Shown here: positions 40,904-50,327 of the stretch, in pieces
How positions within the stretch are numbered: the first letter of the stretch is position 1
How the letters are laid out: every line of letters begins with the position of its first letter
Source: Streptococcus infantarius subsp. infantarius ATCC BAA-102
GTDB taxonomy: Bacteria; Bacillota; Bacilli; Lactobacillales; Streptococcaceae
Length of the DNA stretch: 64,000 nucleotides
Assembly: GCF_000154985.1 (NCBI RefSeq)
Contig: NZ_DS572691.1
Coordinates: forward strand, 62,001 to 126,000
Direction: 5' to 3'
Made by a program: the position numbers and the translations under genes
The notes under the pieces: model-generated
Told to the model about the DNA's origin: nothing
Databases searched by the model: none
Seen by the model: only the letters and a program-made list of their open reading frames with translations

Positions 40904-40944
40904 GTTAAAATCTGTTAACTTCTTTAAAATTTGTTATACTAAAG

Positions 40945-41047
40945 CTGACATAAAAACACATCACAGTTGGTAGTCTGTGAGTACAACATGTATCAGTAAC
41001 CTTCCCCTTCCGAGGTCGTCCATTGTCAATTTTTTTAAGGAGGGGCT
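40945..41047 (+). ncRNA. yjdF-motif riboswitch
   Basis: The leader of the DUF2992 gene holds a hairpin TCACAG/CTGTGA around TTGGTAGT, then CAGTAACCTTCCCC and CCGAGGTCGTCC. The pyrimidine-rich CCTTCCCC can pair with the AAGGAGGGG ribosome site at 41037-41045. This matches, from memory, the yjdF RNA motif that binds aza-aromatic compounds and controls yjdF. TATACT at 40935 is the likely -10. Confidence 0.78.
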
Positions 41048-41050
41048 GTT

Positions 41051-41479
41051 ATGAAAATGACAGTATATTTTGATGGGGCATTTTGGTCGGCTTTGATTGA
41101 ATTTACGGATTCGAAGAAACGTTACAAGGCTTTTCGTTACGTGTTCGGTAAAGAGCCAAAGGATGATGATATTCTAAACTTTATTGATGTTTCTTTGGGA
41201 AAATGGCTGCGCAGGTATGATAAGGTTGAAGTAAGCTCTGAGTTTTCAGCGCCAGCTATTTCACAGAAAAAACGAAATCCAAAACGAGTGCAACGTGATA
41301 TCAATAAGGCAAAGTATAAGCCTGTGGTGTCAACGAAAGCTCAGCTTGCTATGCAGGAAGTGCGTGAGGAAGTCAAGAAAGCTCAAAAGTCTAAGCAAAA
41401 GGTGAAACGTGAGCTAGAAAAGGAACGAAAATACTTGCTTAGGCAAGAAAAGCGTCATCAGAAAAAGCGGGGACATTGA
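41051..41479 (+). CDS. yjdF: YjdF/DUF2992-family protein
   Basis: 142 residues. The N-terminus (MKMTVYFDGAFWSALIE, then FRYVFGKEPKDDDIL) is the DUF2992 signature; the C-terminal half is a highly basic coiled coil (VKRELEKERKYLLRQEKRHQKKR). Probably involved in handling toxic heteroaromatic compounds, inferred from the riboswitch class upstream. Confidence 0.85.
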   Translation: MKMTVYFDGAFWSALIEFTDSKKRYKAFRYVFGKEPKDDDILNFIDVSLGKWLRRYDKVEVSSEFSAPAISQKKRNPKRVQRDINKAKYKPVVSTKAQLAMQEVREEVKKAQKSKQKVKRELEKERKYLLRQEKRHQKKRGH

Positions 41480-45056: not shown

Positions 45057-46205
45057 TTAATCAATTTTCTTAAGATATTCTGCCAGCATCTTCTTTTGTG
45101 GTGTAGCCATGGGATAATCTTGAAGTTGGTCTAGTGAGACCCATCGGAGTTCTTTGTCTTTGGAAACTTCATCTGAAGTTACCATGCCTTCAATGAGCTC
45201 AATAGTCCATTTTTGGTGGCTAAAGGTGTGCTTGACTGGGCTAAATTCTCGCTTAGTCCAATCAGGAGTGACTTGGTAATCCTTTTCAAAAAGTGCTTTT
45301 TGTGAGACGGTTTTAAGAGAAGCAGTATTTTTTTCAAATAAATCTAGCTGCTGTCCGATAAAGTCTGTCTCCACGATTGGAAATGACCAGAAGCCGCCAA
45401 GCAAGCGCCCATCAAGATTTTTTTCTAATAAGAAATCACCGCCGTTATTTCGAATGACAAAAGCTTGAAGCTGTAGCGGCTTGGGCTTTTTCTTAGGCAG
45501 TTTAATGGGGTATTTGTCATAAGTCCCGTGTAAATAAGCTGCACTGAAAAAGCGAATCGGAGACTCATCTGGACGAGGATTCTTGGCTGATTCGATATCA
45601 GTCCCCAGATCCATCAGTGCTTGGTTAAAATCCCCAGGACGTTCTGGATCAATTAAGATTTCCATAATTGCCTGGAAAATCTTGCGATTTTTGGGTTCAC
45701 CAATATCATAATTGACTTCAAAAAGGCGCGCCATGACGCGCATAACATTCCCATCAACAGCAGGTTCAGCAAGTCCAAAAGCAATACTAGAAATAGCTCC
45801 AGCAGTGTAAGGACCAATACCTTTTAAAGAAAGAATATCCTTGTGATTATCTGGAAAAACACCATCAAATTTTACCATGATTTCTTGCGCAGCCTTTTGC
45901 ATGTTGCGCACGCGAGAGTAGTAACCAAGCCCTTCCCAAGCTTTTAGCAATTTATCCTCAGGAGCATTGGCTAAATCTTCAATCGTCGGGAACCATTTTA
46001 AAAAGCGTTCGTAATAAGGAATTACCGTCACCACTTGCGTCTGTTGCAGCATGATTTCAGAAATCCAGATAAAATAAGGATTCTTAGTTCTGCGCCAAGG
46101 TAGGTCGCGTTTTTCATTATCATACCAATTGAGCAGGGTACGGCGAAAAGAAGCAATCTTTTCATCGTCCCACATCTCAATCCCATAATCAGTTAAATTA
46201 ATCAT
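45057..46205 (-). CDS. mutY: A/G-specific adenine glycosylase MutY lacking the Fe-S cluster
   Basis: 382 residues. The catalytic domain has EIMLQQTQV, the helix-hairpin-helix LKGIGPYTAGAI with the catalytic Asp in AVDGNVMRV. The C-terminal NUDIX-like 8-oxoG recognition domain spans about 245-380. After FNQALMDLGTD, where most MutY have four cluster cysteines, this protein has ESAKNPRPDESPIRFFSA and no cysteine at all. Loss-of-cluster MutY is known in some lactic acid bacteria and anaerobes. Removes adenine opposite 8-oxoguanine. Confidence 0.93.
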   Translation of the reverse strand: MINLTDYGIEMWDDEKIASFRRTLLNWYDNEKRDLPWRRTKNPYFIWISEIMLQQTQVVTVIPYYERFLKWFPTIEDLANAPEDKLLKAWEGLGYYSRVRNMQKAAQEIMVKFDGVFPDNHKDILSLKGIGPYTAGAISSIAFGLAEPAVDGNVMRVMARLFEVNYDIGEPKNRKIFQAIMEILIDPERPGDFNQALMDLGTDIESAKNPRPDESPIRFFSAAYLHGTYDKYPIKLPKKKPKPLQLQAFVIRNNGGDFLLEKNLDGRLLGGFWSFPIVETDFIGQQLDLFEKNTASLKTVSQKALFEKDYQVTPDWTKREFSPVKHTFSHQKWTIELIEGMVTSDEVSKDKELRWVSLDQLQDYPMATPQKKMLAEYLKKID

Positions 46206-46284: not shown

Positions 46285-46314
46285 TTGACAAAAGGTAAGC
46301 GGTTACATTATAAT
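46285..46314 (+). promoter_or_regulatory. Strong promoter of the RYKNGD peptide cluster
   Basis: TTGACA (46285-46290), 18-base spacer, TATAAT (46309-46314), both consensus. No larger gene follows for nearly a kilobase; the first peptide ORF starts 54 bases downstream. Confidence 0.8.
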
Positions 46315-46367
46315 AAAAGTGTAAAGAAGGATGACAAAAGAAACGAAGTAAGGAGGTAACAGTTCTT

Positions 46368-46427
46368 ATGATGAAACCACATGTCGCCCGGTATAAAAAT
46401 GGTGATAAAGTCTCTAGTCGGAGTTAA
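46368..46427 (+). CDS. RYKNGD peptide 1 (19 residues)
   Basis: Peptide MMKPHVARYKNGDKVSSRS. AGGAGG at 46351-46356 is an excellent ribosome site; ATG 46371 is an alternative start. First in the series after the promoter. Basic, hydrophilic, no signal peptide. I do not know this family. Confidence 0.65.
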   Translation: MMKPHVARYKNGDKVSSRS

Positions 46428-46465
46428 GTAGGCACAGTTAACTTTACGTTATGGAGGTGGCGCTT

Positions 46466-46507
46466 ATGTTGAAATTAAACTTAGGACGCTATAAAAATGG
46501 TGATTAG
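46466..46507 (+). CDS. RYKNGD peptide 2 (13 residues)
   Basis: Peptide MLKLNLGRYKNGD, ending directly after the shared motif. GGAGG at 46453-46457 is its own ribosome site. Confidence 0.62.
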   Translation: MLKLNLGRYKNGD

Positions 46508-46586
46508 TCACTTTGATTAGCCATAAAGATTTATACCTCAAATCTCAAAAAAATTTGTAACAAAAGAAACATCGGAGGAACGTCTT

Positions 46587-46628
46587 ATGTTGATGATGAA
46601 TGTAGGTTGTTACAAAAATGGAGACTAA
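46587..46628 (+). CDS. RYKNGD peptide 3 (13 residues, Cys variant)
   Basis: Peptide MLMMNVGCYKNGD: Arg of the motif is replaced by Cys (TGT versus CGT, one base). Its ribosome site GGAGG is preceded by ACAAAAGAAAC, the same leader seen before peptide 1, suggesting duplication of leader plus ORF. Confidence 0.58.
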   Translation: MLMMNVGCYKNGD

Positions 46629-46674
46629 CAACTAGTTGAATTTAGGTCAATGAAGGAGTGATGTCACATTTTAG

Positions 46675-46737
46675 ATGAAGATATTAATTGGAAGTGAACG
46701 ATTAGAAATAGCTGGTGCAAGAAATAATACCGGTTGA
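46675..46737 (+). CDS. Possible 20-residue peptide within the cluster
   Basis: MKILIGSERLEIAGARNNTG lacks the shared motif and a well-placed ribosome site (AAGGAG is about 16 bases away). Listed because it lies inside the peptide array; may be chance. Confidence 0.2.
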   Translation: MKILIGSERLEIAGARNNTG

Positions 46738-46818
46738 TCTTGTTGCTAGTAACAGTAGTAATCGAAAGGGCTTCTAATCATATTGCTTCCATGTTTGAAA
46801 AAAGCTTTTAATTTTTTA

Positions 46819-46932
46819 ATGAAAGTTGTGATAGATGTGAAAGCAATCAATGTAGGCCGTTACAAAAATGGAGACTCAAAAAAGATATGGCGACGAGTCA
46901 GTCGCCCTATCAAAAAAACAGAAAAAATTTGA
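46819..46932 (+). CDS. RYKNGD peptide 4 (up to 37 residues, extended)
   Basis: The frame from ATG 46819 gives MKVVIDVKAINVGRYKNGD followed by a strongly basic tail (SKKIWRRVSRPIKKTEKI). GTG 46837 would give the shorter form VKAINVGRYKNGD..., closer to its siblings. The ribosome site is weak for both. The tail contains a perfect DNA hairpin GGCGAC/GTCGCC. Confidence 0.48.
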   Translation: MKVVIDVKAINVGRYKNGDSKKIWRRVSRPIKKTEKI

Positions 46933-46978
46933 TTATTATCGTTGTTATGTGAGTATTTTCAATTAATGGAGGTATCTT

Positions 46979-47032
46979 ATGAACGTAGCAAGATATAAAA
47001 ATGGTGATACTTTAGCTAATTGCATAAAATAG
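46979..47032 (+). CDS. RYKNGD peptide 5 (17 residues)
   Basis: Peptide MNVARYKNGDTLANCIK with the ribosome site GGAGG in the context ATGGAGGTATCTTATG, nearly the same leader as peptide 2. Confidence 0.63.
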   Translation: MNVARYKNGDTLANCIK

Positions 47033-47034
47033 CT

Positions 47035-47055
47035 AAAGGAGTGATACCAATGTAA
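47035..47055 (+). promoter_or_regulatory. Ribosome site with start-stop codon pair
   Basis: AAAGGAG (47035-47041) is followed 8 bases on by ATG immediately followed by TAA (47050-47055). It could be a decayed peptide ORF or a ribosome-holding minimal ORF. A degenerate copy, AAGGAGTGATGTCACATTTTAG, lies at 46653-46674. Confidence 0.35.
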
Positions 47056-47093
47056 AAAAGTAGTGACAAAAAACTCATGGAGGTATATGTACA

Positions 47094-47150
47094 ATGCTGA
47101 AAATGAATTTAAATCGCTATAAAAACGGAGATAATAATCTAACAGACTAA
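47094..47150 (+). CDS. RYKNGD peptide 6 (18 residues)
   Basis: Peptide MLKMNLNRYKNGDNNLTD. The ribosome site is GGAGG at 47079-47083. The motif is encoded with AAC GGA GAT where peptide 1 has AAT GGT GAT, so the peptide is more conserved than the DNA. Last copy before the terminator. Confidence 0.63.
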   Translation: MLKMNLNRYKNGDNNLTD

Positions 47151-47197
47151 CTCCTTATGAGAATGGTATGTTAGATAACATACGAAAAAATTTTTTT

Positions 47198-47230
47198 GAA
47201 GCTGAGATAAAAATTCTCGGCTTCTTTTTT
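47198..47230 (+). terminator. Terminator of the RYKNGD transcript
   Basis: Stem GAAGCTGAGA/TCTCGGCTTC followed by T6. It separates the peptide cluster from the pilus-type genes, although read-through is possible. Confidence 0.82.
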
Positions 47231-47374: not shown

Positions 47375-47644
47375 GTGGGAAAAGAAAAATTTCGAAGATT
47401 AAAACGTATCGAACTATATGAAATCATGCTAGCTCAGAGTAAAGAAATCGACCGATTAAGAGATGAATTGGCAAAAGCCAATGAAAAATTAGAAAATCAA
47501 GAGATAAAACTAGCCAACGCTAGTTCTATCGCAGAAGCTTCCCTTAGTTTGACGAATGTTTTTGAAGAAAGCCAAAAAGCAGCAGACTTGTATCTTAAGA
47601 ATGTCAAACAAATGAATGGAGAAGCGGAGTATGAAAAAGGATAA
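47375..47644 (+). CDS. Small coiled-coil protein of pilus-type clusters
   Basis: About 89 residues from GTG 47375 (GKEKFRRLKRIELYEIMLAQSKEIDRLRDEL, then ASSIAEASLSLTNVFEESQKAADLYL). Small proteins of this type, often annotated only as DNA repair protein, sit next to signal peptidases and Cna_B-type surface proteins in Firmicutes. The frame is open from 47168, but the upstream part crosses the terminator and looks non-coding. The 3' end overlaps lepB. Confidence 0.6.
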   Translation: MGKEKFRRLKRIELYEIMLAQSKEIDRLRDELAKANEKLENQEIKLANASSIAEASLSLTNVFEESQKAADLYLKNVKQMNGEAEYEKG

Positions 47645-48215
47645 CGAAATTACTCTTCCCACAACCAGTGAGATTGAAGAGTTATATAAAAAAGCGAAAT
47701 ACCATAAACTTTTTACCGAGAAGATAAGAAGCACGGTTTTTATGTTAATTGTAGTAGCCGCCTTTGCGATTTTGGTAGCTATGCTTTACCTTCCAACCCT
47801 CAGGATCTATGGGAAATCCATGAAGGGGATGCTAGATAGTGGAGATGTGGTCTTGACAGTTAAAAGTAATCACTTTAGGACAGGAGACATCGTCGCTTTT
47901 TATTACAACAACAATATTTTGGTAAAACGAGTTATTGCAGAATCGGGTGATTGGGTTAACATCACCAAGGATGGAACGGTTTATGTCAATAGCAAAAAAA
48001 TAAAAGAACCTTATATCGAACACAAATCTTATGGTGAGACAAACATTAAGTTTCCTTACCAAGTTCCAGAAAACCGTATTTTCGTTTTGGGAGAAAACCG
48101 TAGCGTTTCGATTGATTCACGAAATACTTCTGTTGGTACAGTTTCTTATGAACAATTAGTTGGTAAACTAATTTTTAGAATCTGGCCTTTATCAGATATT
48201 GGTACTCTAAATTAA
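47631..48215 (+). CDS. Signal peptidase I of the pilus-type cluster
   Basis: A 194-residue second signal peptidase I. Membrane anchor about 35-55, catalytic Ser63 in YGKSMKGML, catalytic Lys99 in LVKRVIAESGD, box E LGENRSVSIDSRN. Pilus islands of streptococci often carry such a dedicated peptidase (SipA type). Overlaps the coiled-coil gene by 14 bases; GGAG upstream. Confidence 0.88.
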   Translation: MKKDNEITLPTTSEIEELYKKAKYHKLFTEKIRSTVFMLIVVAAFAILVAMLYLPTLRIYGKSMKGMLDSGDVVLTVKSNHFRTGDIVAFYYNNNILVKRVIAESGDWVNITKDGTVYVNSKKIKEPYIEHKSYGETNIKFPYQVPENRIFVLGENRSVSIDSRNTSVGTVSYEQLVGKLIFRIWPLSDIGTLN

Positions 48216-48273
48216 AAGTAATTGTCGACATATTTTCACTGATGTTTTAGGAGGGAAGGAGAGTGAAAAATCG

Positions 48274-49167
48274 ATGAGAAATTTTTTTAGACGAAAAGAT
48301 TTAATCAAGAATCATAAAAAACTCGCTACTTTCCTTGCCGTTATAGTAGCTCTGGTGACAGCTTATCTTTTGATTTTACCAGCTATCACTCTTGATAATA
48401 AGACTGCTTTGCAAGATCCTGGTATAGAAGTTGAACAAAGTAGTCAGTCGCCGCCATCACTACCGGCACCACAGGATAATCAGTTAGGATCTGCAACAGA
48501 AAGTTCCTCAGTTGATACGTCAAATAGCGGTGCTACACAAGCAGCAAGTGATGAGCCTGATTTGATCACACAAGCGACAACCTTGACAGCACAAAATCAA
48601 GATTACACGATTAAAGCTGATGTTGATGAAAAGGCACAGTTGCCTAAGGATACGACATTGACCGTCAAGGAAATCAAAAATGACGATGCTGCTTATCAAG
48701 CGAATTATGAAAAAGTACAAAATTCTCTAGTAGGAAAGAACATCGAAAGTGTTCTTCTCTACGATATTTCTTTTGAATCAAATGGTCAAAAGGTTGAACC
48801 AAAAGCTGACGTTAAGGTGACAATCACACCGAAAGAAGCTGTGAATGCCAAAGATAACTTTGATGTTTTGCATTTTCCTGATGATGGTTCACAAGAAAAT
48901 ATTTCGCAAAAAGATGTCAAAGAAATCGATCATAAGATTACATCAGTTTCTTTTGATAATAGTCAATTTTCAGCTTATGCCTTGGTAACATCAAGCAATC
49001 CTTCTGAGTCAAAAGCAAATCTTAATAAAGTTGGTGGTCCGAGATCAACAACTACTCATAATGTGACCTTCAAGTACACTGATAATGCAGGTGTTGAACA
49101 TGAAATGGCAACCGCACAAATTGTCGATGGAGGAATAATTTCAGTCTTCCCAATCAAGATTATCTGA
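48274..49167 (+). pseudogene. N-terminal fragment of a pilus/surface adhesin
   Basis: 297 codons. The signal region has a long basic start and membrane stretch LATFLAVIVALVTAYLLILPAITL, the LPAITLD junction being typical of streptococcal pilus adhesins; a Ser/Pro-rich linker follows. Then comes a domain with VDEKAQLPKDTTLTVKEI, QNSLVGKNIESVLLYDISF and NSQFSAYALV. After ...HEMATAQIVDGG the sequence breaks into sortase DNA and stops within nine codons. No LPxTG anchor remains. Confidence 0.75.
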
Positions 49168-49493
49168 CTTTAGTGACATGTACACCTTACGGGATAAATA
49201 CCCAACGTCTACTGGTACGCGGGCACCGCATTCCAAATGCTGATGGTGAAGCTAAGACCACTTCCGATGCCATGCAGCTCAATGCGTTATATATTGCACC
49301 GTTTATCGGTATTCCAATCTGCCTTGTTATTGTTATCTATATCTTTGTTACAACAAGTAGCAGGTACCTCAAACGTCATGGTGACCGAGTTGGTAAATAC
49401 CTCAGTCAAAAGGGACTTAAACGACCACAAATGAACTCTAAAAACTACCAAGAAACGATTAATCAATTAAAAATAATTTTTAAGGATGATTAA
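49145..49493 (+). pseudogene. C-terminal fragment of a class C (pilus) sortase
   Basis: In frame from about 49150: PNQDYLTLVTCTPYGINTQRLLVRGHRIP carries the catalytic Cys (TLVTC) and Arg (LLVRG) of sortase C. A C-terminal membrane helix (IAPFIGIPICLVIVIYIFV) and a basic tail follow. The catalytic His, lid and N-terminal helix are missing. A deletion joins it to the adhesin around 49140-49152, removing the pilin genes in between. Confidence 0.8.
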
Positions 49494-50036: not shown

Positions 50037-50327
50037 ATGGCTAAATACGAAATTCTTTACATTATTCGTCCAAACATTGAAGAAGAAGCTAAAAACGCTT
50101 TGGTAGCACGCTTTGACTCTATCTTGACTGACAACGGTGCAACTGTTGTTGAATCAAAAGACTGGGAAAAACGTCGTCTTGCATACGAAATCAAAGATTT
50201 CCGCGAAGGACTTTACCACGTTGTTAACGTTGAAGCAGAAGATGCTGTAGCTCTTAACGAGTTCGACCGTCTTTCAAAAATCAACGGTGACATTCTTCGT
50301 CACATGATCGTTAAACTTGACGCGTAA
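50037..50327 (+). CDS. rpsF: 30S ribosomal protein S6
   Basis: 96 residues, [20 protein letters not shown] at the start and [10 protein letters not shown] at the end: bS6, which binds 16S rRNA together with S18. AGGAGG upstream. First of rpsF-ssb-rpsR. Confidence 0.97.

Follow-up and report, generated by a model that had tools for sequence, protein, structure and literature searches.

Arrays of two to eight RYKNGD micro-ORFs, probably under sugar control, between two housekeeping genes of many streptococci

Closest described systems

The PSM-alpha genes form a tandem operon of short peptides, the PSMs, which are amphipathic and secreted; SR1/SR1P is a dual-function small RNA, in which a small peptide is encoded on a regulatory RNA under carbon-source control; and catA86 and ermC have leader peptides of the translational-attenuation type. 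The array of micro-ORFs that we describe here, found in the window (the whole stretch of 64,000 nucleotides that was analysed), resembles PSM-alpha in that one RNA carries several related, very short ORFs in a row, but its peptides are hydrophilic, reach the end of their core after about 10-13 residues and are tied to RNA elements. With SR1/SR1P it shares a small peptide on an RNA and a carbon-source control, which for the array is predicted, and it differs in its many ORFs with one motif and in having no Rfam match over the array.

According to work on the cmlA leader (PMC11190716), its KNAD sequence, in combination with chloramphenicol, arrests translation at the step where Asp occupies the P site and Lys the A site, and tetrapeptides inserted before KNAD weaken the arrest at low drug; by analogy, this shows that a motif so short can work. 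Our locus has in common with such leaders a very short ORF with its own SD, a conserved motif ending about 5-13 codons in, as in cmlA on Asp, a tail that is variable or absent and, shortly after it in the case of module B (see below), a hairpin and an SD that folding predicts to be covered; several solitary copies precede a gene. It departs from them in that the array has 2-8 copies in a row and no cargo gene, and YKNGD, unlike KNAD, has Gly and not Ala before Asp. PMC10192921 gives A, S or T as the residues that chloramphenicol favours in the nascent peptide, and since NGD contains none of these, an action of the same drug on YKNGD is disfavoured and the likeness to cmlA is partial. The streptococcal TprA/PhrA (RRNPP) system, for which control by CcpA is stated in the title of PMC6753895, comes close in another respect: some of its loci hold a YKNGD sORF or a remnant of it between phr and a bacteriocin-type operon, along with an SD-ATGTA-like element, but Phr has a signal sequence and the YKNGD peptides have none.

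The preliminary description of the window knew of no described family, and we found none in the motif, locus and Rfam searches. The string YKNGD occurs in open-access full text (articles without supplements) only in papers whose titles or abstracts concern unrelated subjects, and the longer motif strings and a locus-based search of the same literature returned no description. Peptide 4 has no match in NCBIfam, the remaining peptides being too short for protein-family libraries, and at gathering score Rfam 15 has no match over the array; sub-threshold matches, to snoRNAs among others within the array and to salivarius-1 beyond it, were judged to be chance. Pneumococcal rio16 / Spd_sr37 was considered as a possible earlier description and rejected, the rio16 peptide being unrelated.

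Anatomy and distribution of the array

A cluster of at least six RYKNGD frames behind one consensus promoter and before a terminator had been proposed for the window, and our analysis bears this out. The six micro-ORFs lie on the + strand at 46368-47150 and share the motif [NHD]-[VIL]-[AGSN]-[R/C]-YKNGD, with the Y codon of YKNGD at 46392, 46490, 46611, 46861, 46994 and 47118; a six-frame search of the whole 64-kb window found no [YF][KR]NG[DEN] beyond these six. The promoter (46285..46314, +) is TTGACA-18-TATAAT, with 12/12 matches to the consensus, and holds a cre-like CcpA operator in its -35/-10 interval (about 46293-46307), and at the other end a stem like that of an intrinsic terminator (47198-47224) is followed by a T run (together 47198..47230, +).

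Between them, always on the + strand, sORF 1, MMKPHVARYKNGDKVSSRS (46368..46427), has its SD AAGGAGG at 46350-46356 and is followed by RNA element A, GTAGGCA...ACTTTAC (46428..46447). sORF 2, MLKLNLGRYKNGD (46466..46507), and sORF 3, MLMMNVGCYKNGD (46587..46628), are the two peptides that indeed end at GD, as had been claimed, and in the latter Cys replaces Arg in the window strain, with Arg in the nearest genome, L028. A mini-ORF, MSHFR, stands behind GGAGTG (46661..46678). sORF 4 (46837..46932), which probably starts with GTG, consists of MKAINVGRYKNGD and an 18-residue tail; it lacks a clear SD and is the one exception to the GGAGG noted earlier before most frames (5/6). Next come sORF 5, MNVARYKNGDTLANCIK (46979..47032), and RNA module B (47009..47055), that is, a hairpin with the conserved loop TTGCATAAAATAG (47020-47032), the extended SD AAAGGAGTGATACC and a start-stop ATGTAA (47050-47055), which with MSHFR gives the window two additional ultra-short SD-ATG ORFs. 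RNA element C, ACTCCTTATGAGAA (47150..47163), is complementary to TAAGGAG and is located only after the last frame, sORF 6, MLKMNLNRYKNGDNNLTD (47094..47150).

The repeated leaders are also present as first reported. As to the reported frame lengths of 13-37 residues, the short frames are there, but peptide 4, the one of 37, is probably shorter: we moved its start to GTG 46837 because two related loci, L077 and L079, show ATG there, which would probably give a peptide of 31 residues that starts 7 codons ahead of Arg. In L028, compared with window positions 46368-46507, sORF 2 is absent and sORF 1 runs into the 3' flank of sORF 2. This junction looks like a recombination between repeats, and the copy-number range of 2-8 may have arisen in such a way.

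A codon pattern for R/S-Y-x-N-G-D has matches in 137/284 Streptococcus genomes, some of them by chance or inside long genes, and among the matches listed, clusters of 2-8 copies lying close together on one strand occur in 58 of the 284, a count that combines the match listing for all 284 with a repeat search of 32 genomes. In a collection of named species the pattern M[LMI]xx[NDH][VLI]xRYKNGD, outside which many forms fall, returned 19 stretches, every one with Streptococcus in its title; S. equinus, S. gallolyticus, S. uberis, S. ictaluri and S. thoraltensis are among the species.

The upstream neighbour, mutY (45057..46205, - strand), is divergent from the array in the window and in 55/59 arrays altogether (window counted in), and rpsF (50037..50327, +) lies downstream in 37/59, within the DNA examined. 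A tie to the adjacent pilus locus, which had been thought possible, finds no support in the same comparison, where a pilus-type signal peptidase gene is near 9/59 arrays. From the neighbour counts over the 59 arrays, the order mutY <- array -> rpsF reads as an old locus, and the array looks like a vertically inherited possession of Streptococcus that a pilus adjoins in some lineages only.

Pilus remnants intervene between the array and rpsF in the window, where 47616-49493 is a collapsed pilus locus: about 6.2 kb of L028 are missing, and what is left comprises the gene of a signal peptidase, the first part of an adhesin-like ORF that matched no family, and the C-terminal residues of a class C sortase. 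Elsewhere in the window, at 40940-41479, an azaaromatic (yjdF) riboswitch lies upstream of a YjdF-like ORF, and this riboswitch is also found in one other array-bearing locus (L066). A phage origin was considered and rejected, since none of the 7 viral stretches with the pattern resembles such a micro-ORF; in that check, the short frame of L022 lacks an SD and lies across the start of a gene.

For the promoters, and likewise for the scan of SD-ATG ORFs, the starts, tails, folding, 16S pairing and RNA elements considered below, we used the 43 non-redundant of the 59 arrays, a set that leaves aside L028, the single-copy loci L032, L033 and L097 and all solitary loci. When the best promoter within 410 nt was chosen for each array, the -35/-10 consensus was matched 12/12 in 23/43, and a cre-like site (at least 10/12 positions) was found in the promoter of 41/43, compared with 4.9% of shuffled promoters; the strict cre core is present in 32/43. 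By sequence, then, 41 of the 43 carry a cre-like site placed as a member of the CcpA regulon would have it, where it can block the promoter, and because of these sites we suggest that the array transcript is probably under CcpA repression.

Selection on the peptides and the RNA behind them

It had been proposed that the peptide is conserved here rather than the DNA, and both the free third codon positions and the substitution ratios agree with this. Among 210 distinct sORFs third codon positions vary and the peptide is constant: Arg is encoded by CGC 51, CGG 48, CGT 45, AGG 35, AGA 29 and CGA 1 (with one Cys, TGT), and Tyr, Asn and Asp each by both of their codons. The search pattern fixed codon positions 1 and 2 of RY.NGD, so that the fixation of residues there is partly by construction, and positions -3 to -1 (N/H/D, V/I/L, G/A/S/N) and all third positions are outside the pattern. 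A DNA alignment of nine close relatives to the window, which does not depend on the motif, gives a pN/pS of 0.38 for the core, 0.68 for the N-terminus (counted for sORF 4 from 12 codons ahead of Arg) and 1.24 for the tail; the sequences are related and their pairs not independent, and the core frame is under purifying selection. One finding had been named in advance as pointing to a DNA or RNA element instead, namely homologous loci in which frameshifts break the motif and the DNA stays conserved. Such loci do exist in a side branch, as frameshifted remnants in 7/30 close TprA/PhrA loci, but in the arrays of the close relatives the core frame is selected.

A scan for SD-ATG ORFs that made no use of the motif, in arrays that had themselves originally been found by it, gave Y.NG[DEN] in 135/165 ORFs and RFKNGD or RYKDGD in three more; of the 27 that remain, 19 are 1-5 codons long. 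Over the 43 arrays the conserved block terminates at Asp. The codon after Asp is a stop in 52/159 sORFs, which thus have no tail, and begins with A in 86 of the other 107, whose tails have 1-22 residues, leaving 21 exceptions; since the tail is absent or of variable length, the peptide can do without a fixed free C-terminus. The analysis of tails took the nearest start with any SD-like 4-mer, which biases it to short distances, and starts were therefore redone with all in-frame ATGs behind strong SDs, available for 139 sORFs (the other 20/159 lack one). By best support the start falls 7 codons ahead of Arg in 101/139 and 4 ahead in 23/139, and only 1/139 has a candidate more than 7 codons from Arg; ten solitary types show a distance of 7 codons in nine and of 6 in one. 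Classes of paralogues that can be recognised by their N-termini turn up again in different genomes, and by inspection the peptides are, as first described, hydrophilic and without a signal sequence.

Three RNA elements recur in the arrays in a usual order, and one of them lies 8-21 nt past the Asp codon of 81/159 sORFs; with a rarer fourth (3) they follow 84/159, the remaining 75 having no recognised element within reach. The distances from Asp are 10-21 nt for A, 8-12 for B and 10-17 for C, and the elements appear in 0.2-0.5% of 60-nt control windows. The [GC]TAGGCA of element A is present in 38/43 arrays, as a single copy in 37, and the element as a whole ([GC]TAGGCA, then ACTTTAC or similar) stands after the first or second sORF in 34 arrays and later in one, 10-21 nt past the Asp codon in these 35 sORFs. 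Element C (CTCCTTATGA) is found exclusively after the last sORF, in 14/43 arrays.

Module B consists of a hairpin with the loop TTGCANAAAATAG, then an extended SD and often an ATG with a stop within 1-5 codons. Its loop lies 8-12 nt past Asp in 28/32 copies, at exactly 11 nt in 20; of the four copies that deviate, two stand behind RFKNGD variants. Because the tail frame differs among the copies, we take the module to be kept as RNA and not as tail peptide. The mean pairing with the 16S 3' tail, whose sequence was verified in two genomes, is -15.1 kcal/mol for the SD region of module B (22 copies, chosen by a pattern that already includes an SD), -12.3 for the SDs of sORFs (154) and -8.4 for the comparison ORFs of the window (39 of at least 180 residues, possibly with false starts). 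The hairpin arms are matched above permuted ones (z 5.9, 36 copies of related sequence), and RNAalifold gave no consensus structure on an alignment of module B that has register shifts and leaves L086 and L102 out of 26 listed copies.

Model folding suggests how a ribosome at Asp could act on this RNA. When 12 nt past Asp are hidden, the SD of the mini-ORF opens (+0.107 versus +0.006 in shuffles, means of 31 cases), and when a ribosome footprint at Asp is hidden, the SD of the next YKNGD sORF stays unopened (+0.008, n=70); the footprint folding is judged on means, as counts above 0.2 pit single folds against six-shuffle means. Local stability exceeds that of shuffles at the motif end (mean z -0.95 at offset 0) and also elsewhere (-0.83 at -63, -0.88 at -18). 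A hairpin overlapping the GGNGAY codons was rejected as a general feature (z 0.3 over 159 sORFs; 2.0 for first sORFs).

What the micropeptides may do

The preliminary description suggested intracellular or translation-acting peptides, and among the readings this fits best. We tentatively propose, giving it somewhat less than an even chance, that the nascent micropeptides act in cis and hold the ribosome at Asp beside an RNA element. One RNA from the locus, probably repressed by CcpA, would bear the row of micro-ORFs, each giving a nascent [NHD]-[VIL]-[AGSN]-RYKNGD that is active while still inside the ribosome. The ribosome would pause once Asp, usually residue 13 and in one class residue 10, has been added, and, standing just upstream of element A, B or C, would alter the folding or pairing of the RNA; at module B the pause would uncover the strong ribosome-binding site of the ORF of 1-5 codons. 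The benefit would probably be a tuning of translation or of array RNA stability on glucose exhaustion, and the solitary copies may be leader ORFs of small secreted-peptide operons that work in the same mode. We favour action in cis because selection stops at Asp, the start is a short distance away, the tail is a matter of indifference and the elements lie near the leading edge of the ribosome. Against it stand the terminator, with no cargo gene behind it to read the pause, the sORFs that have no recognised element, the unopened SD of the next YKNGD sORF, the merely partial likeness to cmlA, the missing RNAalifold consensus for module B, a stability that is raised away from the motif end as well, the failure of the GGNGAY hairpin as a general feature, and the canonical bacteriocin loci and further TprA-like loci without an sORF.

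It is also possible, if less probable, that the micropeptides are free in the cell and that their nine-residue core is an epitope binding a protein or the ribosome; the array would then raise the dosage and provide variants, and the RNA elements would only tune stability or translation. Selection of the core at the peptide level (codon use and pN/pS), many copies per RNA behind what is often a full-consensus promoter, and the recurring paralogue classes all agree with this, but it would not lead one to expect a start almost always within 7 codons of Arg or a distance to module B that is kept regardless of the tail frame. Rather unlikely, in our judgement, is an RNA that is itself the functional product, regulatory or docking to ribosomes, with micro-ORFs that mainly load ribosomes in order to protect or shape it. 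The usual order of the conserved elements A, B and C, the extended pairing with the 16S tail and the complementarity of element C to the SD of module B speak for such an RNA; it leaves unexplained the conservation of amino acids alongside free synonymous change.

Leaderless peptide signals, whether they leave the cell and are taken up again or act within it on an RRNPP (TprA/PlcR-like) regulator, are similarly improbable. Solitary copies stand beside RRNPP regulators and Phr-like genes in two genomes (G107, G117), which are the exceptions to the rule that the gene adjoining the array is not a receptor gene, mutY being the usual neighbour; the SD-ATGTA-like element that several TprA-like loci carry and the CcpA control of TprA/PhrA given in the title cited above point the same way. 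The peptides, short and hydrophilic, show by inspection no signal sequence or export leader. No intact YKNGD copy is present at 19 further TprA-like loci (in L185 a remnant lies some 15 kb away from the regulator), the 30 close TprA/PhrA loci hold one intact copy, one RYKNED and seven frameshifted remnants, and several array genomes (e.g. G013, G061, G067, G068, G070, G072 and G074) have no TprA-like match at E 1e-20. The RRNPP ligand is weakened by both TprA-like loci and array genomes, and the earlier thought of signals with an exporter elsewhere has the tails of 0-22 residues and the 19 further loci weighing against it. The frameshifted remnants, shared by several genomes, lie downstream of phrA, and nine TprA-like loci carry a conserved AAAGRAGTGATTCNAATGTA-like element, downstream of phr where phr was seen, which resembles module B and has ORFs of one or a few codons.

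The solitary copies differ in their company. In L034 a single YKNGD sORF has behind it a gene resembling lactococcin 972 and one for a membrane protein associated with bacteriocins, both matches being below curated cut-offs; the arrangement is repeated in L121, and the sORF also occurs in L122. In L084 the sORF has an RRNPP regulator on one side and on the other a small protein that looks secreted, and in L089 it lies between phr and a TOMM-type operon. A generic lactococcin-972 partner was rejected for canonical loci, as the 600 nt upstream were free of YKNGD-like sORFs in all 30 of the top TIGR01653 loci; the relative that has one, in L034, is sub-threshold. Two loci (L219, L220, near 1301) have just upstream of a lactococcin-972 gene a short hydrophobic sORF with a WxW-type tail, which looks like a signal of ComS/RtgS type.

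In a second family of Lactobacillales the pattern was found in 10/76 genomes, and seven micro-ORFs come from six of these (two from G397, one each from G356, G423, G546, G553 and G563); four of the seven have a secreted-looking protein about 20-80 nt downstream (L193 twice, L195, L213), a small membrane-type ORF follows in L196 and L206, and none in L210. Thirteen matches outside Streptococcus were examined and yielded four SD-led micro-ORFs in three genomes. Directly upstream of a gene, where a leader ORF with its own SD would be placed, lie the solitary copies of L034, L084, L089, L193, L195 and L213 (the last without an obvious SD); from this layout the array departs by its terminator and the lack of a downstream cargo gene.

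We give a small chance to an RNA that parks ribosomes, in which a strongly promoted transcript, strong ribosome sites, start-stop-like ORFs and pausing micropeptides would come together under catabolite control; glucose exhaustion would then lead to several ribosomes being held per RNA at defined positions, slowing translation or storing ribosomes. That the frames are mere coincidence in a non-coding repeat has a negligible probability: short ORFs are common in six frames generally, and nothing further was found in its favour, but the clusters in many genomes (among the matches listed), the motif in most SD-ATG ORFs and the pN/pS contrast of core versus tail stand against it.

New here are the cre-like site of the promoter, the RNA elements past Asp, the strong ribosome site with an ORF of 1-5 codons and the solitary copies. 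Conserved in much of the genus and beyond, and repeated in as many as eight micro-ORFs in tandem, the nine-residue motif would show that bacterial genomes contain micropeptides under selection even where ORFs are as short as they can be. Should these peptides act inside the ribosome, the array would supply numerous naturally occurring versions of a single pausing motif, many of which adjoin an RNA element, and such a set would serve the study of nascent-chain control of translation. It also offers an experimental handle on an RNA that is likely to be CcpA-controlled in many streptococci.
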